Source: Nannocystaceae bacterium
Lineage (GTDB): Bacteria; Myxococcota_A; Polyangia; Nannocystales; Nannocystaceae
Direction of reading: 5' to 3'
Assembly: GCA_019694555.1 (NCBI GenBank)
Contig: JAIBBS010000008.1
Location: forward strand, 1 to 64,000
Length of the DNA: 64,000 nucleotides
Of the stretch, positions 40,116 through 64,000 are shown in pieces (within the stretch, counting starts at the first letter, position 1; each line of letters opens with the position of its first letter). Below the pieces are notes generated by a model. That model did not search any database. It saw nothing but the letters and a program-made list of their open reading frames with translations, and had not been told where the DNA came from. The translations under genes and the position numbers were made by a program.

Positions 40116-40292
40116 ATGGAAGAGTTCGTCAAGGAATTGGTCGCGAAGGTCGGGCTCGACGAGGACAAGGCGCGCGCCGTCGTCGCCTTCATCCAAGAGA
40201 ACGCGCAGAAGATCCCCGAGTGGATCGGCGGCAGCGACATGCTCGAGTCGCTCAAGGACAAGCTGCCCGGCGGACTGGGCAAGCTGTTCTAG
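40116..40292 (+). CDS. Small helical protein (58 aa), DUF2780/2267-like
   Basis: A 58-residue frame with strong G/C third-position bias. It reads EEFVKELVAKVGLDEDKARA, VVAFIQENAQKIPEWIGGS and ends KLPGGLGKLF, a compact amphipathic helical bundle. This pattern, helix-turn-helix with a Gly-rich end, recalls DUF2780 (VcgC/VcgE) or DUF2267 proteins; the name is tentative. A -10-like element sits 9 nt upstream. The stop overlaps the stop of the convergent flavoprotein gene by 4 nt. The function is unknown. Confidence 0.75.
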   Translation: MEEFVKELVAKVGLDEDKARAVVAFIQENAQKIPEWIGGSDMLESLKDKLPGGLGKLF

Positions 40293-41407
40293 TCCGGCTG
40301 TTCGCCGAGCAGGGTCGAGGCGCGGCTCGCGAGCCACTGCGGGTTGAACACCTTCGAGGTCAGCGAGCGCGCCCGCTCCGATCGCATCAGCTGCACGAAG
40401 CCGTGGCCGGCCCAGAACTTGGGCAACATGCGTGCGCGCGTGCGCGTGCGGTACAGGCCGCGACCGACGCGCGACAGACCCTGCTCCCGCGTGAAGTGGC
40501 GCCCGATCGCGTCGGCCGCCAGCACGCCGCTCTCGAGCGCGAACGAGATGCCCTCGACGGTGCCGGGCGACACCAGCCGTGCGGCCTCGCCGATGTCCAT
40601 CACGCGGGCCTCGGCGATGGTGTCGCTGACCTTCGTGGTCACCACCGCCGGGTGGCCCATCCACTTGCCGACCAGCTGTGCATCGCGCACGACCTCACCG
40701 AAGTGCTCCTCGAGGATCGTCTCGAACAGCGCCTTGAGCGTCTTGGTCTCCGGCGCGCCCTCGGGGATCGTGAGCCCGATGTTGGTCACGCCGCCGGGCT
40801 CCGGGAACGCCCATGCGTAGTAACCGTCGAGGCGGCGGTCCCACACCATCGTGCCCTGTCCGTCCGGCTGTCGCGTGTCCTTCCACCAACCCATGATCGT
40901 GCGGATGCCGGTGTGCGGCGTCGGGTCGCGCGAGAAGCGGGCCGGCGAACCGTTGGCGCACACGACCATGTCGGCCTCGATCTCGCCGGACGCGGTCCGG
41001 ATGCCGCAGATCTGGCCGTCGCTGCCGCGCAGGAGATCGGTGACCTTGGTCTCCTGCTGGAACGTCGCGCCGGCCTGCTGGGCCGCCTCGACCATGCCTT
41101 GATCGAAGTCGATGCGCGGCAGCACCCACGCACCCTTGGCGCCGCTCAAGTAGATCTCTTGCCCGCCAGGTCCGCGCGCGAGCAGCTTGGGCATGCGCAG
41201 CGCCTTGGGCGAGAAGCGATCGCGGATCTCGAGGTGATCGAGCACCGACAGCGACAGCGGCGACAGCCCGCTGCCGCAGACCTTGATCCGCGGGTAGCTC
41301 GACTTGTCGAGCAACAGCACCTCGGTCTGGCCGCGCCGCGCCAACGCCAGGGCACAGGCCGAGCCCGACGGCCCGGCACCGACGATCACGATCTTCGGTT
41401 TCGGCAT
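40289..41407 (-). CDS. FAD-dependent oxidoreductase, geranylgeranyl-reductase family
   Basis: A 372-residue flavoprotein. The dinucleotide-binding loop is VIVGAGPSGSACALALA (about 6-22), followed by KVCGSGLSPLSLSVLDHL. The YAWAFPEPGGVTNIGLTIPEG segment and GDxxxP-like GEAARLVSPGTVEGISFALES resemble geranylgeranyl reductase/electron-transfer flavoprotein dehydrogenase-like enzymes. Members reduce isoprenoid chains or hydroxylate aromatics. ATG 41407 starts directly at the FAD loop. It lies 3 kb from the prenyl-synthase fusion but not in its operon; a link to isoprenoid metabolism is inference. Confidence 0.83.
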   Translation of the reverse strand: MPKPKIVIVGAGPSGSACALALARRGQTEVLLLDKSSYPRIKVCGSGLSPLSLSVLDHLEIRDRFSPKALRMPKLLARGPGGQEIYLSGAKGAWVLPRIDFDQGMVEAAQQAGATFQQETKVTDLLRGSDGQICGIRTASGEIEADMVVCANGSPARFSRDPTPHTGIRTIMGWWKDTRQPDGQGTMVWDRRLDGYYAWAFPEPGGVTNIGLTIPEGAPETKTLKALFETILEEHFGEVVRDAQLVGKWMGHPAVVTTKVSDTIAEARVMDIGEAARLVSPGTVEGISFALESGVLAADAIGRHFTREQGLSRVGRGLYRTRTRARMLPKFWAGHGFVQLMRSERARSLTSKVFNPQWLASRASTLLGEQPD

Positions 41408-42732: not shown

Positions 42733-44055
42733 ATGCACCTCCCCCGCGTCGTGATCGGCGGCCTCGGGGCCTGCGCGCTGGCGTGTGCTGCCGGCGAAGC
42801 CACCGAAGGCAGCGGTGCCGCGACGCTGCCGCACTTCACCAGCGGTGCAGACGGGACCGACGGCACCTCGTTCGTCGATCCGTCGGCGACCGGGCCCGTG
42901 GGCAGCAGCGATCACGGACTGCCGACCACGGATGGATCCGAGAGCGGCGTCGAGTGTCCCATCGGCAGCCTCGGGTGTCCGTGCACGCCCGGTGGCGCGT
43001 GCGACGATCCGTTGGGTTGCCTCGCGGGCACCTGCACCGAGGTGCCGCCGGAGTGTGGCAACGGCGAGATCGAAGGCAGCGAGGCGTGCGACGACGGTGC
43101 CGCCAACGGCGACGAGCAGGCGTGCAAGAGCGACTGCACGCTGCAGCAGTGCGGCGACGGCTTCGTGGGACCGGGCGAGGGCTGCGACGACGGCAACGAC
43201 GACGACACCGACGCGTGCACCAATGCGTGTGCGCTGGCGTCGTGCGGCGACGGCATGGTGCAGCAGGGCGAGGCCTGCGACGACGGCAACGACGACGACA
43301 CCGACGCGTGCCTGGCCACCTGCGTCGCGGCCTCGTGCGGCGACAGCATCGTGCAGGCCGGTGTCGAGGGCTGCGACGACGGCAATCCCGACGACAGCGA
43401 CGGCTGCACCAACGCCTGCACCGTCGCCAGCTGTGGCGACGCGATCGTGCACGCCGGTGTCGAGGAGTGCGACGACGGCAACGGCAACGACGGCGATGGC
43501 TGCACCAACGCGTGCGCGTGCCCGCGGCTCGACTTCGCCGACGCCGGCGACATCGCGGGCTGGAGCACCAGCGGTGGCTGGGCGCTGTACGCCAGCGCGC
43601 CGGTCAGCAGCAACCTCGAGGTCGTGTTCGTGACCGGCGGCAGCGCCGTGGGCACCGACGGCAACCGCGTCCCGCCCTACCCCGGCGCCGAGATCGAGAC
43701 CTCGAGCCTGACCACCGCGACGTTCGTGTTGCCGCAGACCCTGCGCTTCCACTCGTGGCACGTCGACGAGGGCGGTGCCTCCTACGACACCAAGCGCCTG
43801 TCGATCTCCACCGACGGCGGTGCGTCGTGGACGCTCTTCGTCGACTGCGCCGACGCGGCACTGGGCGATCAACCCTTCTGCAGCTACGTCTCGGGGCCGC
43901 GCGACGAGTTCGCGTTCGACGACATCGCGATCGATCTCGGTGCGTTCGCCGGCAGCAGCGGCCAGGTTCGTCTCGAGTACGACAGCATCGACGAGTGTTG
44001 TCAGTTCGAGCAGGGCTGGTTCCTCGACGACGCCAACTTCGTCACCTGCGGCTGA
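42733..44055 (+). CDS. Lipoprotein with five DUF4215-type Cys repeats and a C-terminal beta domain
   Basis: A 440-residue secreted protein. The lipobox is GACALAC (Cys18), then a Gly/Ser/Thr stalk. Five repeats of about 30 residues follow at about 107-262, with the DUF4215/TIGR02232 pattern CGDG.V..GE.CDDGN...D.C...C, a myxobacterial Cys-rich repeat. The C-terminal 170 residues are beta-rich (WALYASAPVSSNLEVVFV, FVLPQTLRFHSWHVDEGG, RLSISTDGGASWTLFVDCAD) and look like a jelly-roll or MAM-like module. ATG 42733 fits the -10-like TAGCAT 8 nt upstream. A surface-binding role is likely. Confidence 0.88.
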   Translation: MHLPRVVIGGLGACALACAAGEATEGSGAATLPHFTSGADGTDGTSFVDPSATGPVGSSDHGLPTTDGSESGVECPIGSLGCPCTPGGACDDPLGCLAGTCTEVPPECGNGEIEGSEACDDGAANGDEQACKSDCTLQQCGDGFVGPGEGCDDGNDDDTDACTNACALASCGDGMVQQGEACDDGNDDDTDACLATCVAASCGDSIVQAGVEGCDDGNPDDSDGCTNACTVASCGDAIVHAGVEECDDGNGNDGDGCTNACACPRLDFADAGDIAGWSTSGGWALYASAPVSSNLEVVFVTGGSAVGTDGNRVPPYPGAEIETSSLTTATFVLPQTLRFHSWHVDEGGASYDTKRLSISTDGGASWTLFVDCADAALGDQPFCSYVSGPRDEFAFDDIAIDLGAFAGSSGQVRLEYDSIDECCQFEQGWFLDDANFVTCG

Positions 44056-44206
44056 CGCCCGCGGTATCCCGCGTGGGCACGACTACCGCTGCAAGCATCG
44101 TCTAGCGTTCGAGACGCGGGCGCGCGACACGCATCGCGAGCGCGCTGCGGCACGATCTGCAGTCGTGCTCGTGGGCGAGTTGCCCAGCGCGGGCTTGCGA
44201 TCCTGC

Positions 44207-44212
44207 TAGTGT
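44207..44212 (+). promoter_or_regulatory. -10-like TAGTGT before the fusion gene
   Basis: TAGTGT ends 9 nt before GTG 44222, supporting this GTG as the real start. Confidence 0.45.
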
Positions 44213-44221
44213 GCCGCTGAC

Positions 44222-46672
44222 GTGCACGACGACGCGGTTCCGGGAACCCAAGAGGCATCAAGCGCAACGCGAAGCGCGTTGCACAATCTTCTCCAGGACA
44301 CGCGACGCCAGCAGCCGCAGTGCTACGGACACAGCATGCTGGAAGCACTCGACCGGGATTGCGGGGGACCGTTCGAACCCAGCGGCGACGGCTTGCTCGG
44401 CCGCTCGTCCGAGGGCCCGGCCCGCGCGCGCGCGTTGCCGCGCCGACCTGCCGACTGGCCCGCACCGGGCCCGATCGACCTCGCACTGCACGATCTGCCG
44501 CATGCGTCGTCGACCACCGAGTGGTGGTACCTCAAGGCCCACGTCGAGACCGTCGACGGCCGCGGCTTCTCGCTGTTCGCGGCGTTCTTCCGGGTGCTGC
44601 GCGGTCGCGACGAGACCACCGGCGAGCTGCAGTACGCGCACTCGCTGACGTGGGCGCTCTCCGATCCCGGCCGCCGCCGCTACGTGACGCAGTCGCTGGT
44701 CGATCGCAGCGCGCCGTCGCTGGGCATCCAGAAGCTCGACCGCGGCGAGGGCACCCGCGACGTCCGCATCCGTCGCGCGATGCGTGAGGTCTGCGCGCGC
44801 GACAAGGTCCCCTACCCCGATCGCATGTTCGCGCGCACGCCCCACGTCGCGCAGCGCCGGCTCGAGCTCGAGTTCGACGACGCTCGGCTGTCGCGCACCG
44901 ACGACGGTCGCTATCGCCTCGAGCTCATGCACGACCAGGCCAAGGTCGGCTGCAGCCTGGTGTTCACGCCGCGCAAGGCCGCGGTGCGCCACGGCGACGA
45001 CGGCGTGGTCAAGGGCACGCAGGGCGAGGACATGTTCTACTACTTCGTGCCGCGCTGCGACGTCGAGGGCGAGCTCGTCGACGCCGGCGTGCGCGTGCCG
45101 CTGCGCAGTGGCAGCGGCTGGTACGACCACGAGTTCGGCCGCCACCCCGAGGGCGAGGCCGCGGTCGACAAGGGCAAGCGCGACGACGTGGCGTGGAACT
45201 GGTGCGGCGCGCAGCTCGACGACGGCAGCGAGCTGTCGGCCTACCGCATCGTCGATCTCACGACCGAGGAGGTCCTGGGCGAGCGCGTGCTCGTGGTCGA
45301 GGCCGACGGCACGCGCCACGAGTACCGCACCGGCAGCTTCGAGCCGCGCAACCTGTGGCGCAGCACCCGTTCGTTCAACGAGTACCCCACGCGGTGGTCG
45401 CTGCAGGTGCCCGAGGCCGGGCTCGAGCTGTCGCTCGACGCCGCGTTCGACGACCAGGAGTTCATCACCGTGGTGTCGAAGCCGGCGTTCTGGGAGGGCC
45501 GCGTCGACGTGCACGGCACCCGACGCGGTCGGCCGGTGCGCGGCCTGGGCTACGTCGAGCGCAGCGGCTTCTCCAGCATCGACGACCTCGAGGGCTTCTT
45601 CGGCGCCGTGGGCAAGGAGGTGCGCCGCTCGGTCGCCGAGCTGTACCCGCGTCAGCCCAGCTTCGAGCAGGCCCGTGATCTCATCGCCAGCGAGGCGCGG
45701 GCCGGCTGGATGGACGGCGTCGACGTCGAACGCTTCGCGCGCACGATGATCCACCCGGTGCGCGACATCACCGATCGCGGCGGCAAGTCGTGGCGTTCGT
45801 ACGCCGCGCTGGCGTGCTGCGACATCGTCGGCGGCGACTCGCGCAAGTTCGTGAAGTGGCTGGCGATGCCGGAGTTCATGCACGTGGGCTCGCTGATCGT
45901 CGACGACGTGCAGGACCGCTCCGACGTGCGCCGCGGCGGCCCCACGGTCCACCGCGTCTACGGCGACGCGCATGCCATCAACAGCGGCACCGCGGCGTAC
46001 TTCATGGGCCAGAAGCTGCTGGCGTCGGAGGAGGTCTCCCACGCCGACCGGCTCAAGCTCTACGACCTCTACTTCGAGGCGTTGCGCGCCGGGCATGCCG
46101 GCCAGGCGCTCGACATCGAGGGCTTCGACGACATCGTCGACGACGCGGTCGAGCGCGGCGACGGGCTCGCGCTCGAGCACCGCATCCTCGCGATCCACCG
46201 CCTCAAGACCGCCGCGCCCGCGGCCGGGCTCGCGCGCATGGGCGCGGTCGCCGGTGGCGGCTCCACGGCGCAGATCGAGGCCGTGGGCGACTTCTTCGAG
46301 GGCCTGGGGCTCGCGTTCCAGATCATCGACGACGTGCTCAACCTGCGCGGCTTCGGTCGCGGGCTCAAGGCCACCGGCGAGGACATCAGCGCCGGCAAGG
46401 TCACGCTGCCGGTGGCCAAGGCCATCGCGGCGCTACCACTGCCGCGACGACGCTGGCTGTGGCAGACCCTGCGCGCACGGCCGCAGGATCCCGCGGTGGT
46501 GGCCGAGGTCATCGCCGCGATCGAGGAGTGCGGCGCGCTCGATGCCTGCGTCGAGCAGGCCCACGCCCTGGTCGAGTCCGCGTGGCAGCGCTTCGATCCC
46601 CTGGTCGAGGACTCCTTTCCCAAGCTCGTGCTGCGAGCGTTCGGCTGGTATGTACTCGAGCGCCACTACTGA
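44222..46672 (+). CDS. CrtC/AttH-like hydratase domain fused to a polyprenyl diphosphate synthase
   Basis: An 816-residue two-domain protein. Residues 85-440 resemble the CrtC (hydroxyneurosporene synthase)/AttH lipocalin-like family: TEWWYLKAHVETVDGRGFSL (EWWY at 99), GWYDHEFGRHPEG, VAWNWCGAQLDDGSELSAYR and FWEGRVDVHGTR. Residues 460-816 are an all-helical trans-prenyltransferase: GGKSWRSYAALACCD, first Asp motif DDVQD at about 560, RRGGPTVHRVYGDAHAINSG, FQIIDDVLNL at about 700, and TGEDISAGKVTLPVAKA. The second motif is DDxxN, as in eukaryotic-type GGPP synthases, and no two-residue insertion occurs in the first. Predicted role: make a prenyl diphosphate and act on it or on its terpenoid product. 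The next gene overlaps its end by 23 nt. Confidence 0.85.
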   Translation: MHDDAVPGTQEASSATRSALHNLLQDTRRQQPQCYGHSMLEALDRDCGGPFEPSGDGLLGRSSEGPARARALPRRPADWPAPGPIDLALHDLPHASSTTEWWYLKAHVETVDGRGFSLFAAFFRVLRGRDETTGELQYAHSLTWALSDPGRRRYVTQSLVDRSAPSLGIQKLDRGEGTRDVRIRRAMREVCARDKVPYPDRMFARTPHVAQRRLELEFDDARLSRTDDGRYRLELMHDQAKVGCSLVFTPRKAAVRHGDDGVVKGTQGEDMFYYFVPRCDVEGELVDAGVRVPLRSGSGWYDHEFGRHPEGEAAVDKGKRDDVAWNWCGAQLDDGSELSAYRIVDLTTEEVLGERVLVVEADGTRHEYRTGSFEPRNLWRSTRSFNEYPTRWSLQVPEAGLELSLDAAFDDQEFITVVSKPAFWEGRVDVHGTRRGRPVRGLGYVERSGFSSIDDLEGFFGAVGKEVRRSVAELYPRQPSFEQARDLIASEARAGWMDGVDVERFARTMIHPVRDITDRGGKSWRSYAALACCDIVGGDSRKFVKWLAMPEFMHVGSLIVDDVQDRSDVRRGGPTVHRVYGDAHAINSGTAAYFMGQKLLASEEVSHADRLKLYDLYFEALRAGHAGQALDIEGFDDIVDDAVERGDGLALEHRILAIHRLKTAAPAAGLARMGAVAGGGSTAQIEAVGDFFEGLGLAFQIIDDVLNLRGFGRGLKATGEDISAGKVTLPVAKAIAALPLPRRRWLWQTLRARPQDPAVVAEVIAAIEECGALDACVEQAHALVESAWQRFDPLVEDSFPKLVLRAFGWYVLERHY

Positions 46673-47357
46673 TCCCGGTGCGCGCGCGCACGGCTGCACC
46701 CGCGGCTTCGTCGCGGACACCGGCGCGTGCGGCTGCACCGAGCCGGCCGAGCACGACGTCGCTGCGATCGCGGCGCGTCCGCGCTGGGCGCTCGAGCGCA
46801 CGCTCGCGCTCCCGGGCCGCTGCCGTGGCAGCGTGCTCGCGCGCTGGGCCGACAACTGCCGCCGCCACTTCGGCGCGGCCGCGGTGCAGCGGCTGCGCAC
46901 GCAGCTGCCGGCGTGGGCGCGCGCGCTGCCCGACGATCCGCCCGAGGACGCGTGGTTTCCGGTCGGCCTGCAGCTGCACCTGACCGAGCTCGTCATCGAC
47001 ACGCTGCTCGGCGGCGACGCGCTGCAGCTCGAGGCGTTGCTGCGCGCGGACATCCAGCGCGGCCTGTCGCGCGCGCAGCAGCTGCTGCTGCGCACGGTCG
47101 GCCCCACGCTGGTGCTGTCGCGCGCCGACGCGCTGCACGGCCACCTCTACGACGTCGGCCACGCGCGCGCGCGGGTCCACGGCGGGCGCGCGACGATCGA
47201 CTGCGAGGGCGCAGCGCTGTTCGGCCACCCGACGTGGTTGCTGCTGCAGCTGTTCGCGCACCGCGGCCTGGTCGCGCTCACCGGCCGCGAGGCGCTCGAG
47301 GCCCGCGCGACCGCCACCGGCGAGACCGCGGTCCGCTTCGAGCTGAGCTGGCGTTGA
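46650..47357 (+). CDS. DUF2378-like myxobacterial small protein (paralogue B)
   Basis: A 235-residue protein whose ATG lies 23 nt inside the 3' end of the prenyl-synthase fusion gene, so translation is probably coupled. The N-terminus has five cysteines in the first 45 residues (GCTRGFVADTGACGCTEP). The body aligns with paralogue A at 29727 over most of its length (RGSVLARW, DAWFPVGLQLHLTELVIDTLL, VGPTLVLSRADALHGHLYDVG, ending RFELSWR). The family tie (DUF2378/TIGR02265) is tentative. It is convergent with hemN, 6 nt away. A partner or adaptor for the fusion enzyme is plausible. Confidence 0.68.
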   Translation: MYSSATTDPGARAHGCTRGFVADTGACGCTEPAEHDVAAIAARPRWALERTLALPGRCRGSVLARWADNCRRHFGAAAVQRLRTQLPAWARALPDDPPEDAWFPVGLQLHLTELVIDTLLGGDALQLEALLRADIQRGLSRAQQLLLRTVGPTLVLSRADALHGHLYDVGHARARVHGGRATIDCEGAALFGHPTWLLLQLFAHRGLVALTGREALEARATATGETAVRFELSWR

Positions 47358-47363
47358 TCCGCG

Positions 47364-48755
47364 TCACGCGGTGCGACTGAACTGCGCCGCGGCGTCGTCA
47401 CGATCGAGGTACGCGTCGAACGCCATCGCGACGTTGCGCAGGAAGTAGCGCCCGCGCGGGGTCACCACCACGCGCGAGCCCTCGCGGCGCACCAACGCAT
47501 CGCGCTCCAGCTCGGCCAGCTGCTCCCACGACCGCGGCGACAGCTGCGCCGCCGTGCCATTGCCGAGCCGCGGCAGCTCGGACTCGCCGTAGCACATGAT
47601 CGACTGGATCACGCGCTCGCGCGCGAGGTCGTCCTCGGACAGCTCCATGCCCGCGACCACCGGCAACTGCCCCTGCTCGACCTGCGCGGCGTACTCCGGC
47701 ACCGCCTTGGCCGACTGCGCGAAGTCGCGGCCGATGCGGCTGATGGCGCTGGCGCCCAGGCCCAGCAGATCGGTGCCGGCACGCGTGGTGTAGCCCATGA
47801 AGTTGCGCCGCAGCGTGCCGGCGCGGCGCGCCAGCGCGAGCTCGTCGTCGGCCAGCGCGAAGTGATCCATGCCGATGGCCTCGTAGCCGGCGCGGGCCAG
47901 GATCGTGGCCGCGGTGTGGAACAGCTTCACGCGTGTGTCCGCGTCCGGCAGCGCCGCGGCATCGAGCGCGCGCTGGTGCTTGAGCCGCGCGGGCAGGTAC
48001 GCGAACTGGTACACCGCGATGCGGTCGACGCCGAGATCGGCGACCGTCTGCACCGTGCGACGGAACGAGTCGACGCTCTGGTGCGGCAGGCCGTAGACCA
48101 AGTCGACCGCGATGCTGCGGATGCCCAGCGCGCGCGCGCCCAACACCATGTGCTCGATCTGCGCCAGGCTCTGGTGTCGGCCGATGGCCTTCTGCACGGT
48201 CGGGTCGATGTCCTGCACGCCCATCGACAGCCGGTCGAGCCCGAAGCGCTGCAGCGTCTCGAGCTGCGCCATGGTCGTCACGCGGGGGTCGATCTCGATC
48301 GACTGTTCACGGTCCGGCAGCAGCTCGACGCGCTCGGCGATGGCGCGGTGCAGCGCGATGAGATCGGCGACGTCGAGCCAGGTCGGCGTGCCCCCGCCCC
48401 AGTGCATCTGACACACGCGCAGCCGCGCCTGCGAGGTGGCCTCGAGCACGCGATCGAGCTCGCGACGGATCAGATCGACGTAGCCGCTGCCACGCGCGTG
48501 GGTGCGGCTGAGCACCACGTTGCAGCCGCAGAACAGGCACCGCCGCTCGCAGAACGGCACGTGCACGTACAGCGACAGCGCGTGGTCGGGGTCGCTGCGG
48601 GCGCGTTCGCCGAGGTCCGCGAGCGCCGCGGCCCACCGCGCGCTGGGGTAGCGCTCGGGCCAGTGCGGCACCGCGGGGTAGCTCGTGTAGCGCGGTCCGG
48701 GTCGACCGTACTTGACCAGCAACGACGGGCTGGGCGGGGACTCCTGCGGCTGCAT
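47364..48755 (-). CDS. hemN: Oxygen-independent coproporphyrinogen III oxidase
   Basis: A 463-residue radical-SAM enzyme that decarboxylates coproporphyrinogen III to protoporphyrinogen IX in heme synthesis. The [4Fe-4S] ligands are Cys69, Cys73 and Cys76 in FCERRCLFCGC, with the fourth HemN-type Cys78. YVHVPFCE, HWGGGTPTWL, SIEIDPRVTTM, LSMGVQDIDPTVQKAIGR and VDLVYGLPHQ are the hallmark HemN segments, distinguishing it from HemW. A -10-like TACAGT lies 13 nt before the ATG. It stands alone on the minus strand between unrelated genes. Confidence 0.94.
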   Translation of the reverse strand: MQPQESPPSPSLLVKYGRPGPRYTSYPAVPHWPERYPSARWAAALADLGERARSDPDHALSLYVHVPFCERRCLFCGCNVVLSRTHARGSGYVDLIRRELDRVLEATSQARLRVCQMHWGGGTPTWLDVADLIALHRAIAERVELLPDREQSIEIDPRVTTMAQLETLQRFGLDRLSMGVQDIDPTVQKAIGRHQSLAQIEHMVLGARALGIRSIAVDLVYGLPHQSVDSFRRTVQTVADLGVDRIAVYQFAYLPARLKHQRALDAAALPDADTRVKLFHTAATILARAGYEAIGMDHFALADDELALARRAGTLRRNFMGYTTRAGTDLLGLGASAISRIGRDFAQSAKAVPEYAAQVEQGQLPVVAGMELSEDDLARERVIQSIMCYGESELPRLGNGTAAQLSPRSWEQLAELERDALVRREGSRVVVTPRGRYFLRNVAMAFDAYLDRDDAAAQFSRTA

Positions 48756-51084: not shown

Positions 51085-52902
51085 CTAGGGCTCGAGGCCG
51101 GCCGCGACTGCGGCCGCGTGCGCGAGATCGAAGCCCGCGAGCGTCTCGCTGCCACCGGGCGGCGGCGGCTGCCACGGCACGAAGCCCTCGCGTCGCCACA
51201 CCCGCCACAGGTAGCGCGGGTCGTCGAGCGATCGCGGCAGCTCGAAACGCACCACGCGTGGTCGACCGTCGTCGGTGACGGCCTCGATCGCTACCGTGCC
51301 GCCACAGTCGGGTCCCGAAAGCGGCATGCGATCGCCGACGGCGAACGGCACTCGCAGGCTGCGGACCATGCGTTCGACCGGCGTGGTCAACAGCCCGTCG
51401 CTGGCCTCGACGCGCAGGGTTCGCTCGTCGACCCGGACGAAGCGCACCGGCCCGGTCGAGGTCGCGAGCGTGCGCGCGGCGATCGGCGCGGGCTCGCCGT
51501 CGGCGATGCGCGTGAACACCAGGTACGATCCGGGCCCGTCGTTGGGCGCGAAGGCGGCGATGACCTCGTGCTCGGTGATCGCGGGCTCGCGCGGCACCGT
51601 GCGATCGAGCGTGGCCAGGGCCTCGCGCACCGTCGCCATCGAGCGCGCGCGCACCGGCAGCAGCGCCACCGCGAGCACGGCGTGCACGAACCACAGCAGC
51701 GCGAGCGCCCCCCGCTCGGCGCGCCGCGGCGGCGCGGCGTCGGGCTTGCCCACCAGCACCATCGCGACGATCGCCGCGCCGCCCAGGCCCACGAAGCCCA
51801 GCAGTCGATCGGCGGGGAACGTGCCCGCGAGCGGCACGCACGCGAGCGTGGCCCCCAGCGCGAAGAGCCCCGCGACGCCGCGTGCGGCCGCGCGACGCCA
51901 CACCAGCGCCGCCGTGATCGCGACGACGGCCGCGTACCACGCCGCCAGCGCGATCGCGATGCCGCGCGGCCACGCCAGCCAGAAGTCGGACCACGGCCCC
52001 AGCAGCTGCGCGCCCAGCAGCGCGAGCACGCGCCCGGGCAGCACCGTCGCGAACGCGAGCGGATCGCCGCTGGGATCGATGTAGATGTCCGAGCCGGAGC
52101 CGCCGTAGCCGCCCATGCGATAGGCCGCGATCCACGGCACCACCACCAGCAGGTACGGCAGCAGCACGCGCGCGCGCGTCAGCAGCGGGCCGCGCTCGAA
52201 CGCCAGCGCGTGCGCGCCGAGGTAACCCAGCATCGCGATCGTGCCCTCACCCGCGAGCAGCCCCACGCCCAAGCTCGCGGGTGCTGCGACCGCGGCCGCG
52301 CGCGAACCGTCGCGACGCCAGCGATCGTGCAGCCACAGCGCGGCGAAGCCCGCCGTCGCCATCAGCAGCGCGTTGCGGTTCGAGATGTAGCCGACCACCG
52401 GGCCACGCGCGTCGTCGAGTGCGAACAGCGCCAGCGCCACGGTCGCGACGATGGGCGGCAGCAGACGCCGGAAGACCGCGCGCGCGGCCGCCAGCATCGC
52501 CGCGAAGTACACGAACGAGTGCACCAGCATCGCGCTCGAGGATCGCGGCCACAGCACCAGATCGAGCGCGTGCGTCAGCGAGGACAGCGGCCGCAGGAAG
52601 CCCAGGCGGTAGTGCGGCGCGACCCACCACGCGAGCATGCCGCCGTCGAGCAGCGACGCCCGCTGCTGCGGGTCGTCGCGCACGAACACGAAGAGATCCC
52701 AGGTGCTCGGCGCGAGCCCGTCGAAGCGCGGGCCGCCGACCCCACGCACGCGCAGCATCGCGTCGTCGGCGGCGAAGCCGACGCCGAGCGACGGCGTCAC
52801 CAGCAGCACCGCGACCGCGATGATCCACACGTCGGCGTGCGGCCGCGCCAGCCACTGCAGCCAACGCCGCCGCCACGGTCCCCAAGACGCGAATTCCGAC
52901 AC
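51085..52902 (-). CDS. GT-C-like polytopic membrane protein
   Basis: A 605-residue inner-membrane protein from GTG. Roughly ten to eleven hydrophobic segments fill residues 25-440 (VWIIAVAVLLVTPSLGVGFA, PIVATVALALFAL, RALVLLPYLLVVVPWIAAY and others). An acidic DD pair in the first periplasmic loop (GFAADDAML) and NRNALLMATAGFAALWLHD suggest a GT-C-type glycosyltransferase that uses a lipid-linked donor. The last 170 residues are soluble and beta-rich. The glycosyltransferase call rests on topology only. It lies upstream of the PHP lipoprotein gene on the same strand, 136 nt away. Confidence 0.72.
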   Translation of the reverse strand: MSEFASWGPWRRRWLQWLARPHADVWIIAVAVLLVTPSLGVGFAADDAMLRVRGVGGPRFDGLAPSTWDLFVFVRDDPQQRASLLDGGMLAWWVAPHYRLGFLRPLSSLTHALDLVLWPRSSSAMLVHSFVYFAAMLAAARAVFRRLLPPIVATVALALFALDDARGPVVGYISNRNALLMATAGFAALWLHDRWRRDGSRAAAVAAPASLGVGLLAGEGTIAMLGYLGAHALAFERGPLLTRARVLLPYLLVVVPWIAAYRMGGYGGSGSDIYIDPSGDPLAFATVLPGRVLALLGAQLLGPWSDFWLAWPRGIAIALAAWYAAVVAITAALVWRRAAARGVAGLFALGATLACVPLAGTFPADRLLGFVGLGGAAIVAMVLVGKPDAAPPRRAERGALALLWFVHAVLAVALLPVRARSMATVREALATLDRTVPREPAITEHEVIAAFAPNDGPGSYLVFTRIADGEPAPIAARTLATSTGPVRFVRVDERTLRVEASDGLLTTPVERMVRSLRVPFAVGDRMPLSGPDCGGTVAIEAVTDDGRPRVVRFELPRSLDDPRYLWRVWRREGFVPWQPPPPGGSETLAGFDLAHAAAVAAGLEP

Positions 52903-60417: not shown

Positions 60418-62634
60418 ATGACTGCTCGCTTCGCCGCGCTCGCGCAGCTGCTGCTGCGGCACCGCCGGATCGCCGCGATCGCGTGGCTCTTGCTGCTGGG
60501 GTTCGCGTTGGCCGGCGCGGCGCGGCTGCGCTTCGATCTGTCGTCGAAGGCATTCTACGGCGATGGCGATGCCGCGACCGCGGCACTCGAGGCCCTGCAG
60601 GCACGCTGGGGTCACGACGACGCGACCCTGGTCGTGGTCGCGGATGCACCCGACGAGGCCGGCGTGCTGACCCACGCGCGGCTGCACGCGATCCGAGCGC
60701 TGGCCGACGAGCTGCGCGCGCGCGACGAGGTCGAGCGTGTCGACACCGTCACCGACCACCCGGCCTCGGCTGCGGTCGCCGGCGGCTCGCGCCCGGCGCG
60801 GGCGTGGTTGCACAGCGCGCCGATCGTGCCGGTGTTGCTGGCGGCCGACGAGCGCAGCGCCGCGATCGCGGTGCGGCTGCGCTTCAGCTCCGACGCGCTC
60901 GAGCCCACCGTCGCCGCGGTCGAGGCGCTGCAGGCCGTGATCGGGGCGCACGACGGCGACGCGGGCCTGCGGCTGTACGCCGGCGGCCTGCCGGCCGTAC
61001 GCGCCGCGTTCGCGCGCACCAGCCTCGCAGACCAGCGCGTGCTGGTGCCGGTGTGCCTGGTGGTGGTGTCGCTGGTGCTGTCGCTGGCGCTGCGCCGCGC
61101 GTGGCAGGTGGTGGTGCCGCTGCTGCTCGCGCTGGTGCCGACGGTCGTGCTGCTGGGGCTGATGGGCTGGGCCGGCGTGCCGATCGGTCTGCTCAACCAG
61201 GGCTACTTCACGCTGCTGCCGGTCATCGCGCTCGCCGATGGCGTGCACCTGGTCACGCGCGTGGCCGAGCACGGCGCGAGCGCGCTGGACCGCGACGCTC
61301 GCGACGGCGCCATCGCCACCGGCTGCGGCCGCGTGGGCCTGTCGTGTCTGCTGACCAGCTCGACCACCGCGATCGGCTTCGCCTCGCTGGCGCTCTCGGG
61401 CATGCCGATGCTGCGCAGCTTCGGCGGCTGGGCGGCGCTGGGCGTGATGCTGGCGTTCGCCACGCTGCTCTTGCTCGCGCCGCTGCTGCTCGCACCGGTG
61501 CGCGACCTGGGCCCCGGCACCGCGCTGGTCGGCGACGAGCGGCACTGGCTCGCGCGCGCGACCGCGTTCGCGCGCACGCGCCCGTGGCCGACGCTGCTGC
61601 TGGCGATCACGCTGACCGCGGTGGCAGTGCTGGCGGCGCGGCGGGTCCCGATCGACAACCGCCTGTCGGACTTGGTCGACGCCGATCATCCGGCGTCGCG
61701 CGCGAGCGCTGCGATCGACGCGCGGCTGGGCGGCGTGCTCTCGCTCGAGCTCGAGCTGGTCGGGCCCGCCGGCCACTGGCGCGCACCCGAGCACGTGCGC
61801 GCGCTGGCCGAGCTGGAGGACGCGATCGCGACGCTGCCGCAGGTACGCGCGGTGATCGGACCGACGGTGATGTTGCGCGCCGCGGGTTCGCGGGTGGCCG
61901 ACGACGAGGCCGGCATCGTCCGCGGCTGGCGTCGGCTCGACGCCGCCGGCCTGCGCCGCGACGTGCTCGACGACGACGAGGGCATCGCCCACGTCAGCGT
62001 GCGCGTGCCCGACCTCGGCGGTCGCAGCTTCGAGGCCCTGGTCGCGACCATCACCGATCGGACCCACGCGCTCGCGGGCGTCACCGTGCACGCCGGCGGT
62101 ACCGCGGCGCTGGCCTACCGCGGCGTCAACCGCATCGCGACCGAGCTGCGCGACAGCATCCTGGGTGCGTTCGCGGTCATCACGATCGCGATCGGTGTGG
62201 CACTGCGCAGCGCCAGGGCCGGGCTGGCGGCGATCGTGCCCAACGCCGTGCCGCTGCTGCTCGGCTACGCTGCGTTCGCGCTGTGGCTCGATCACTTCGA
62301 CCCGCTCGGCGGTGTGATCCTGGCGGTGGCGCTGGGCATCGCGGTCGACGACACCATCCACCTGCTCGCGCGCACGCGCGAGCACCTGCACCAGGGACAC
62401 GCCACCGCGCACGCGCTCACGCTGGCGGTGGCGGGCGCGGGCCTGCCCTGCGCCGTGACCTCGGTGGTGCTGGCGGCGGGCCTGGCCAGCTTCACGCTGT
62501 CGAGCTTTCCACCGCTGCGTCAGCTCGGGGCCCTGGGCGCGCTGGTGATCGTGGTCGCGCTGGTGTGCGATCTGCTGCTGCTGCCCGCGATGGTCATGGT
62601 GCTGCGCCGCCGCGATCGCCCGCCGCGTGGCTGA
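60418..62634 (+). CDS. MMPL/RND-superfamily transporter
   Basis: A 738-residue inner-membrane protein with the tandem RND layout. One N-terminal helix (IAAIAWLLLLGFALAGAA) is followed by a large periplasmic loop, then a TM bundle from about residue 205 (VLVPVCLVVVSLVLSLALR) through VIALADGVHLVTRV (about 268). The second half repeats this, with VALGIAVDDTIHLLART at about 640, the DDxIH core of hydrophobe/amphiphile exporters. MMPL members move lipids and lipid-like molecules. It follows a lipoprotein gene and is convergent with the type III PKS/ICMT operon, overlapping it by 41 nt. A lipid cargo is inferred. Confidence 0.9.
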   Translation: MTARFAALAQLLLRHRRIAAIAWLLLLGFALAGAARLRFDLSSKAFYGDGDAATAALEALQARWGHDDATLVVVADAPDEAGVLTHARLHAIRALADELRARDEVERVDTVTDHPASAAVAGGSRPARAWLHSAPIVPVLLAADERSAAIAVRLRFSSDALEPTVAAVEALQAVIGAHDGDAGLRLYAGGLPAVRAAFARTSLADQRVLVPVCLVVVSLVLSLALRRAWQVVVPLLLALVPTVVLLGLMGWAGVPIGLLNQGYFTLLPVIALADGVHLVTRVAEHGASALDRDARDGAIATGCGRVGLSCLLTSSTTAIGFASLALSGMPMLRSFGGWAALGVMLAFATLLLLAPLLLAPVRDLGPGTALVGDERHWLARATAFARTRPWPTLLLAITLTAVAVLAARRVPIDNRLSDLVDADHPASRASAAIDARLGGVLSLELELVGPAGHWRAPEHVRALAELEDAIATLPQVRAVIGPTVMLRAAGSRVADDEAGIVRGWRRLDAAGLRRDVLDDDEGIAHVSVRVPDLGGRSFEALVATITDRTHALAGVTVHAGGTAALAYRGVNRIATELRDSILGAFAVITIAIGVALRSARAGLAAIVPNAVPLLLGYAAFALWLDHFDPLGGVILAVALGIAVDDTIHLLARTREHLHQGHATAHALTLAVAGAGLPCAVTSVVLAAGLASFTLSSFPPLRQLGALGALVIVVALVCDLLLLPAMVMVLRRRDRPPRG

Positions 62635-63136
62635 GCGCGCGGCGCTCGCAGGGGATCCGCACCAGCCCCAGCAGCGCTGCGTTCGCCACGCTGGCGAGCC
62701 ACGCCGTGGTCGTGGCACCGACCGACAGCGGCACCGCGGCCAGCTCGATCACGACCGCGAGGTAGTTGGGATGCGCGAGCCAGCGGTAGGGCCCGTGCCG
62801 CAGCGGCACGTCGCCGGGCACGACCAGCACGCGCGTGTTCCAGCGCTCGCCCAGGCTCGCGATGGCCCAGTAGCGCAGCAGCTGCGCGACCACGAAGGCA
62901 CCCAACCACAGCGGCCACGCCGGCGCCGGCGCGCCACCGCGCGTCAGTGCCTCGAGCGGCCACGCCACCAGCCAGCCACCGTGCAGCAGGAAGAACAGTG
63001 GATAGTGCGCGGCGCCGAACTCGACCGCACCGCGCGCGCGCGCGCGGGCCTCGTTGCGCCGCGCCAGCCGCAGCTCGGCGGCGCGCTGGATCGCGAGCAC
63101 GCCCACCAGCGTCGCGATCATCCCGGTGCCGCTCAT
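62594..63136 (-). CDS. Isoprenylcysteine carboxyl methyltransferase-family protein
   Basis: A 180-residue integral membrane methyltransferase of the ICMT/phospholipid-methyltransferase type. Four to five membrane segments surround the SAM-binding C-terminal motif GPYRWLAHPNYLAVVIELAA (about 114-133), with the RHP-N core typical of this superfamily; IPCERRAL follows near the end. In Streptomyces, SrsB, an ICMT-type enzyme, methylates phenolic lipids made by the type III PKS SrsA; the same order is seen here. The ATG overlaps the PKS stop by 4 nt (ATGA). Product methylation is inferred. Confidence 0.85.
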   Translation of the reverse strand: MSGTGMIATLVGVLAIQRAAELRLARRNEARARARGAVEFGAAHYPLFFLLHGGWLVAWPLEALTRGGAPAPAWPLWLGAFVVAQLLRYWAIASLGERWNTRVLVVPGDVPLRHGPYRWLAHPNYLAVVIELAAVPLSVGATTTAWLASVANAALLGLVRIPCERRALSHAAGDRGGAAP

Positions 63137-64000
63137 GCCTCGAACACCGCCGCCTCGGCGCAGAAGCCCGGGCCCAGACCGACCACCACGCCCAGGCCGC
63201 TGACACCTCGCGCGAGCAGCTGCTGCAGCACGAACAACGCCGTCGGGCTCGACATGTTGCCGCAGCGCTGCAGCACCGCGCGGGCCGGCGCGAGCTGTTC
63301 GTCGTCCAACCCCAGGCACTGCTGGTAGGCCGCGAGCACCTTGGCGCCGCCGGGGTGCAGCGCGAAGTGACGCAGCGCCTCGCGCGGTCGCTGCACGCCG
63401 TGCAGCGCCGCGGTGACGAACTCGGGCAGCATCGTCTGCACCAACGCGGGGATGCTGCGGGCGAAGCGGACCTGCAGGCCCTCGTCGCGCAGATCCCATC
63501 CCATGACGTCCTCGCTGTCGGGCAGCAGCTGCGCCGCACCGCCCAGGATGCGCGGCCCGGGGCCCTGGGGCGCGAGCACGGCCGCGGCGGCCCCGTCGGC
63601 GAACAACGCGGTCGCGACGAGGTTGCGGCGACTGCAATCGGCCGCGACGAAGGTCGCGCTGCAGATCTCCGCCGCGACCAGCAGCACCGGTCGCTGCAGT
63701 CCGCGGCACAGCGCTGCGGCACGCGCGAGTCCGGCGGCACCGCCGGCGCAGCCCAGGCCCCACAGCGGCAGCCGCTGCACGTCGCGCCGCAGGCCCAGCC
63801 GTGCCACCAACGCGGCGTCGAGGCTGGGTGTGGCGATGCCGGTGCTGGTGACCCACACGATCGCGGCGATGTCGGCGTGCGCCAGCTCGGCGTGCGCGAG
63901 TGCCTGCGTCGCGGCGGCGGTGCCGAGCTCGACCGCGCCCTCGGCCCACACCGCGTTCTTCTCCGCGAAGCTGCGCGGCGACTCGAACCATGCCAGCGGC
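63133..64000 (-). CDS. Type III polyketide synthase (chalcone/stilbene synthase family), 5'-truncated by the window edge
   Basis: Residues corresponding to the C-terminal two-thirds of a type III PKS; the N-terminus lies beyond base 64000. The catalytic triad is complete: the nucleophile Cys at 63748-63750 (GLGCAGGAAG), His at 63355-63357 (HPGGAKVL) and Asn at 63256-63258 (CGNMSSPTALFVL). The edge reads AWFESPRSFAEKNAVWAEG, typical of the family. The enzyme condenses malonyl-CoA units with an acyl starter, giving pyrones or resorcinols. It overlaps the ICMT-family gene by 4 nt, forming an operon. The starter and product are unknown; alkylpyrone or phenolic lipid is a fair guess. Confidence 0.9.
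   Translation of the reverse strand, partial: PLAWFESPRSFAEKNAVWAEGAVELGTAAATQALAHAELAHADIAAIVWVTSTGIATPSLDAALVARLGLRRDVQRLPLWGLGCAGGAAGLARAAALCRGLQRPVLLVAAEICSATFVAADCSRRNLVATALFADGAAAAVLAPQGPGPRILGGAAQLLPDSEDVMGWDLRDEGLQVRFARSIPALVQTMLPEFVTAALHGVQRPREALRHFALHPGGAKVLAAYQQCLGLDDEQLAPARAVLQRCGNMSSPTALFVLQQLLARGVSGLGVVVGLGPGFCAEAAVFEA

Follow-up and report, generated by a model that had tools for sequence, protein, structure and literature searches.

The window analysed here, the whole stretch of 64,000 nucleotides from a Nannocystaceae bacterium (contig JAIBBS010000008.1), contains on its forward strand a gene that joins an AttH/CrtC-like half to a polyprenyl synthase half. The frame 44222-46672 (+) is open throughout in translation, with no stop or frameshift between the halves, and three Pfam domains are found in it in the order CrtC N-terminal lipocalin, Lipocalin_9 and polyprenyl synthetase, all above their gathering scores. 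The single continuous frame described in an earlier note on this DNA is thus confirmed, and the motifs named there (EWWY, DDVQD and DDVLN) are all present and conserved. The features of the locus are as follows.

44222..46672, + strand: whole open frame of the AttH/CrtC-like and polyprenyl synthase fusion, from the first in-frame GTG at 44222
44336..46672, + strand: favoured coding sequence, 778 aa from its ATG, based on the codon-model start choice and the homologue starts
44516..45139, + strand: CrtC N-terminal lipocalin domain PF07143, frame residues 99-306, E 9e-18, 65.9 bits against a cut-off of 22.5
44519..44530, + strand: EWWY motif, E62-Y65 in 778-aa numbering, invariant across the main subfamily
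45119..45127, + strand: Trp-Tyr-Asp motif including Asp264, from the alignment with CrtC Asp268 and the kievitone hydratase WYD
45182..45568, + strand: Lipocalin_9 domain PF17186, second beta-barrel, frame residues 321-449, E 8e-23
45752..46519, + strand: polyprenyl synthetase domain PF00348, type-III-GGPPS-like, frame residues 511-766, E 5e-46, 157.5 bits against 27
45902..45916, + strand: first Asp-rich motif DDVQD, read from the sequence
46328..46342, + strand: second Asp-rich motif DDVLN, whose Asn is also found in yeast type-III GGPPS and is Asp in actinomycete members
46650..47357, + strand: overlapping downstream partner gene, 235 aa, of a diverged DUF2378-like family, ATG at 46650, 23 bases inside the fusion
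51085..52830, - strand: polytopic membrane protein of a ~590-aa family that directly adjoins the fusion in many other Myxococcota

Although no in-frame start precedes the GTG at 44222, translation probably does not begin there. Codon scoring favours the ATG at 44336, and the homologues begin just upstream of the PxDWPxxGxIDL segment; therefore, the true protein should have about 778 aa, of which residues 1-32 have very low confidence in the AlphaFold2 model. No sigma-70-like promoter was found in the search of 44050-47500, which leaves the TAGTGT -10-like element proposed in the earlier note unsupported. The coupled downstream gene holds up, since its start overlaps the 3' end of the fusion and its family accompanies the fusion elsewhere. 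The members of this family have about 200 aa, and one of them weakly matches DUF2378. Of the 318 genomes of the class searched, 18 have a strong member (E below 1e-40), and the fusion is present in 16 of the 18 (Fisher p 3e-15, a value that ignores relatedness), with the partner gene at most 370 bases from the fusion in all but one of the co-occurring genomes. Two partners of ~200 aa were seen without a detected fusion (G089 C593 and G312 C33), one of these genomes being incomplete.

In 14 genomes, the gene of the ~590-aa membrane protein is no more than about 240 bases away from the fusion; in a further 5, among them the genome of the window, the distance is up to 5 kb. The sequence pattern of this protein weakly suggests a GT-C glycosyltransferase; no match was found among the Pfam and PDB profiles, and hhalign against PMT_2 gave a Prob of only 67% (0.5% for the MMPL control). 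An MMPL exporter as the conserved neighbour was rejected, because the Myxococcota protein has no MMPL match whereas the actinomycete proteins do. Some other genes of the surroundings were recognised by eye or by weak matches. Type III polyketide synthase-like and isoprenylcysteine-methyltransferase-like genes lie side by side in the window at 62594-63999 (-), 16 kb from the fusion, and a second genome of the genus has such a pair at a distance of 2.7 kb (L021 10163-11736, +), both by eye. Upstream, at 40289-41407 (-), there is an FAD oxidoreductase with a weak match to a geranylgeranyl-reductase catalytic domain (PF22578, E 7e-4).

Then, could the fusion be an artefact of assembly or of a frameshift? 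When one genome per species was scanned, 171 relatives were confirmed and 80 loci were kept. In 72 of the kept loci the gene is not truncated by a contig end, and every one of these spans both halves. The relatives are 33-86% identical across both halves; four genomes of the same genus carry the fusion at 75-81% identity, and it is present at least in part in about 36 of the 318 genomes of the class. Its hosts belong to at least five major lineages, that is, Myxococcota, Bacteroidota (Spirosoma, Saprospiraceae, Membranihabitans and several Flavobacterium isolates in pure culture), cyanobacteria, Thermoplasmata archaea and actinomycetes (Streptomyces, Microtetraspora and Nonomuraea). The archaeal contigs carry TFIIB-like and Gar1-like genes, recognised by eye, alongside the fusion, and archaeal hosting looks real. 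The fusion is also found on plasmid records of Tolypothrix and Streptomyces canus, labelled there only as 'polyprenyl synthetase family protein'. Because it recurs in four genomes of one genus and across phyla, the fusion is far beyond chance, and an artefact was rejected. Homologues with the two domains always in separate genes would have spoken against the earlier note; instead, they are fused in hosts from Myxococcota through archaea. Note that the record titles of L032, L075 and L084 (Klebsiella, Clostridia and Caldiserica MAGs) fit the gene and its neighbours poorly, and these contigs are possibly mislabelled or mis-binned.

In the tree of the synthase halves, the fusions cluster together with two stand-alone relatives, and a single origin of the fusion is possible. 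The halves of Spirosoma and Cyanosarcina pair with each other (98/80), pointing to horizontal transfer. Stand-alone synthases about 40% identical to the C-terminal half occur in genomes of the same family (L027 4606-5790 and L028 6025-7239); no AttH domain was detected on the contigs carrying them, and loss of the AttH half is possible there.

Based on an alignment of 35 sequences, the AlphaFold2 model of the fusion is confident (mean pLDDT 89.3, pTM 0.87), with an N-terminal half like AttH and kievitone hydratase and a C-terminal half like GGPP synthase, and both halves also matched the expected Pfam families above the cut-offs. Foldseek with the whole model returned AttH, kievitone hydratase and then the GGPP synthase 1wy0. 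With the N-terminal half alone, the matches were AttH (2ich, E 1e-26), kievitone hydratase (7a0q/7a0t, E 3e-19), the 25-phosphosteroid lyase (9fzn, E 5e-11) and the pericyclases Phm7, Fsa2 and CghA (E about 1e-9), which have the same fold. By predicted models and Foldseek, this half is a double calycin barrel of the AttH/kievitone-hydratase superfamily. Kievitone hydratase hydrates a prenyl tail (PMC5805349), and the 25-phosphosteroid lyase introduces the subterminal alkene into a sterol side chain (PMC11061730); for the two enzymes of known function that are nearest to the modelled half, the site of action is the end of an isoprenoid chain.

Residue conservation was scored in 35 members, namely 29 main members and six others, the actinomycete and L103 group. 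In the 29 main members, E62-W-W-Y65, W262-Y263-D264 and W287-x-W289 show little or no variation, and WYD and WxW are also the motifs of kievitone hydratase. The region of the W287-N-W289 pair (CrtC W283/W285) precedes and lies within the Lipocalin_9 domain. Against the annotated CrtC of Roseobacter litoralis, in a weak profile alignment (Prob 1.4%), D264 aligns with Asp268 and W287/W289 align with Trp283/Trp285. In CrtC, Asp268 is essential and the proposed proton donor, Trp residues are likewise essential (PMC4717167; PMC12402844), and geranylgeraniol and farnesol are hydrated as well (PMC12402844). EWWY may be the equivalent of CrtC Trp110. However, in the same weak alignment (Prob 1.4%), the columns of His239, Trp241 and Tyr266 are D, F and W in the fusion, which means that three of the four CrtC residues with dead alanine mutants are not conserved, and HxW at the place of His239/Trp241 occurs in none of the aligned members. 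Next to the fusion, carotenoid genes were recognised neither in the window nor in the relatives inspected. A true CrtC of a carotenoid pathway was therefore rejected, on residues and on gene context. Since the Asp and the Trp pair are kept while His239, Trp241 and Tyr266 are absent, the N-terminal half may be like a prenyl hydratase and yet no CrtC. The kinship with CrtC claimed in the earlier note stands with a qualification: the PF07143 match and the fold support it, but the half is closer to AttH and kievitone hydratase, and three catalytic residues of CrtC are missing.

Asp264 is lost in five of the six members of the actinomycete and L103 group; consequently, hydration is not the function everywhere. 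The relative at L026/L103 (5963-8020) has an AttH half without EWWY and WYD and a full synthase, and it adjoins aminotransferase, M28 peptidase and PP-loop-like genes, with a possible small peptide gene at L026 491-700.

The synthase half keeps DDxxD, the second DDxx, the Lys/Arg/His site for IPP, Arg-Arg, Lys-Thr and Gln. K484, R487, H516, D523/D524/D527, R532/R533, K624, Q662 and D665/D666 do not vary among the 29 main members and hardly vary in the remaining six, with one change of Lys484 to Arg in the actinomycete group. The resemblance to eukaryotic-type GGPP synthases suggested in the earlier note is borne out by DDVLN, by the small G518/S519 at -5/-4 of the first Asp motif, as in yeast type-III GGPPS, and by Y555, F556 and H587, which align with Tyr107, Phe108 and His139 of the yeast enzyme (5 higher in the PDB chain numbering). 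In yeast type-III GGPPS, the Tyr/Phe/His set, with small residues upstream, stops the chain at C20 (PMC9729869), and these matches make C20 the best guess for the product. The genome holds four other prenyl synthase (PPS) genes, so the fusion need not be the housekeeping synthase, a role that is unlikely.

In Tolypothrix, a chain of 1509 aa comprises, from its N-terminus, a sulfotransferase, a GT28/UGT-like glycosyltransferase, CrtC, Lipocalin_9 and the synthase, and its gene is flanked by those of a membrane-fusion protein and a DevC-type permease. UGT-type genes lie downstream in the L050 myxobacterium (+1), Membranihabitans (L079, +1) and Cyanosarcina (L061, +2). In Spirosoma, a tight run contains the fusion, a lipase-maturation-factor-like (LMF1) membrane protein, an FkbM methyltransferase, a GT28-like enzyme and two P450s in succession, and this FkbM shares 50% identity with the FkbM that follows the fusion in Cyanosarcina. 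In Nitrosomonas stercoris, a diverged member lies upstream of a flavin monooxygenase. At the actinomycete loci L104, L105 and L108, MMPL-type transporters are next to or near the fusion; most actinomycete members have lost the catalytic Asp. No UGT stands beside the fusion gene in the window, and no terpenoid cluster is recognisable at most Myxococcota and Flavobacterium loci. Both points speak against the reading as a terpenoid enzyme. Where tailoring genes do adjoin the fusion, they point to a tailored and usually glycosylated terpenoid as the end product, and the compact terpenoid route imagined in the earlier note is strengthened by the fused or adjacent glycosyltransferases, P450s and methyltransferases.

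We propose that the chain may combine a GGPP synthase with an acid-catalysed hydratase of the terminal isoprene, a reading that we regard as about evenly poised between right and wrong. The C-terminal all-helical domain would make GGPP from IPP and an allylic diphosphate (FPP, or a shorter one starting at DMAPP), and elongation would stop at C20. Asp264 of the N-terminal half would then protonate the terminal double bond (C14=C15) of the chain, the tryptophans of EWWY and WNW would hold the tertiary cation, and water would add to it, so that an omega-hydroxylated (15-hydroxy) geranylgeranyl chain results. Glycosylation would follow, on either the tertiary or the prenyl alcohol, and some hosts may oxidise, methylate or sulfate the product. 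The fusion, its conservation, the intact synthase residues, the kept Asp and Trps and the neighbouring genes are observed, and the folds are predicted; the C20 length, the substrate of the N-terminal half, the choice of water over ring closure and the final product are what we infer here.

In a close alternative, an internal double bond would capture the cation, that is, the GGPP synthase would be joined to a class II-like cyclase, and protonation by Asp264 would lead to a cyclised prenyl diphosphate. The chemistry is the same as that proposed for CrtC, which was modelled on squalene-hopene cyclase (PMC4717167), and many aromatic residues are conserved in the N-terminal half. The pericyclases Phm7, Fsa2 and CghA have its fold, which counts against a hydratase, and there are copalyl diphosphate synthases that carry a prenyltransferase part in the same chain, of which PDB 8v0f and 9q3i match the C-terminal half. 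However, the nearest enzyme of known function by Foldseek is a hydratase, the open-licence literature searched yielded no terpene cyclase with a calycin fold, and no class I cyclase adjoins the fusion in the window, so that we consider cyclisation rather unlikely. A wider version, in which the half is a calycin-fold terpene cyclase with an aspartate acid that acts on its own GGPP, was spread by horizontal transfer and feeds unisolated glycosylated diterpenoids, is judged unlikely; if true, it would be a new structural class of diterpene cyclase in bacteria and archaea.

Calycin and lipocalin folds are often lipid-binding. The N-terminal half could accordingly be non-catalytic, a domain that passes the prenyl chain to a downstream glycosyltransferase or exporter; the actinomycete members keep the fusion despite the loss of the Asp, L103 does so without most of the motif, and ABC, MMPL or DevC exporters adjoin several members. 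The conserved Trp-Tyr-Asp, WNW and EWWY of the main members, however, resemble an active site and not a mere pocket, and we hold such a handover role to be unlikely. That the synthase half is a terpene synthase or an inactive scaffold without prenyl synthesis is very unlikely: DDVLN has Asn for the third Asp, and terpene synthases of prenyl-synthase descent are among the PDB relatives of this half, but the IPP-site and allylic-site residues are conserved, and yeast type-III GGPPS likewise has Asn there.

Few enzymes hydrate an isolated double bond selectively, and such enzymes are in demand. Under the preferred reading, GGPP synthase with hydratase, a putative hydratase would be permanently coupled to the supplier of its substrate and kept across bacterial phyla and archaea, and the fusion would offer a testable entry to unknown terpenoid glycosides via easily grown hosts, for example, Flavobacterium.

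Both halves are of known folds and one-chain prenyltransferase-cyclases are known, but this combination is new to the literature searched: no published description of the architecture was found in the open-licence literature searched, and NCBIfam has no equivalog for it. Kievitone hydratase of Nectria haematococca (7a0q/7a0t) has in common with the N-terminal half the two-barrel CrtC-type fold (TM 0.77 on the target) and the Trp-Tyr-Asp and Trp-x-Trp motifs, and hydrates the end of a prenyl group; it differs in being a secreted, fungal, single-domain enzyme of prenylated isoflavonoid substrates without a synthase half, at about 15% identity. The fusion matches CrtC (PF07143) above the cut-off and keeps the equivalents of Asp268 and Trp283/285, but has D, F and W for His239, Trp241 and Tyr266, and is synthase-fused and outside a carotenoid cluster. 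AttH NE1406 of Nitrosomonas europaea (2ich), the closest solved structure to the N-terminal half, shares EWWY and W-x-D-x-E, but is a stand-alone protein with no assigned function. For the synthase half, the type-III GGPPS yeast Bts1 and human GGPS1 (the yeast enzyme being the one compared) offer the Asn-ended second motif, the small residues before the first motif and the Tyr-Phe-His stop, whereas they are eukaryotic and single-domain, with low overall identity, and the archaeal GGPPS 1wy0 scores higher. Finally, in the fungal prenyltransferase-terpene synthase and cyclase-prenyltransferase copalyl fusions (e.g. 8v0f), GGPP is also made and transformed in one chain. The second domain of those enzymes, however, is an alpha-helical terpene cyclase, whereas here it is a calycin-fold, hydratase-like domain.
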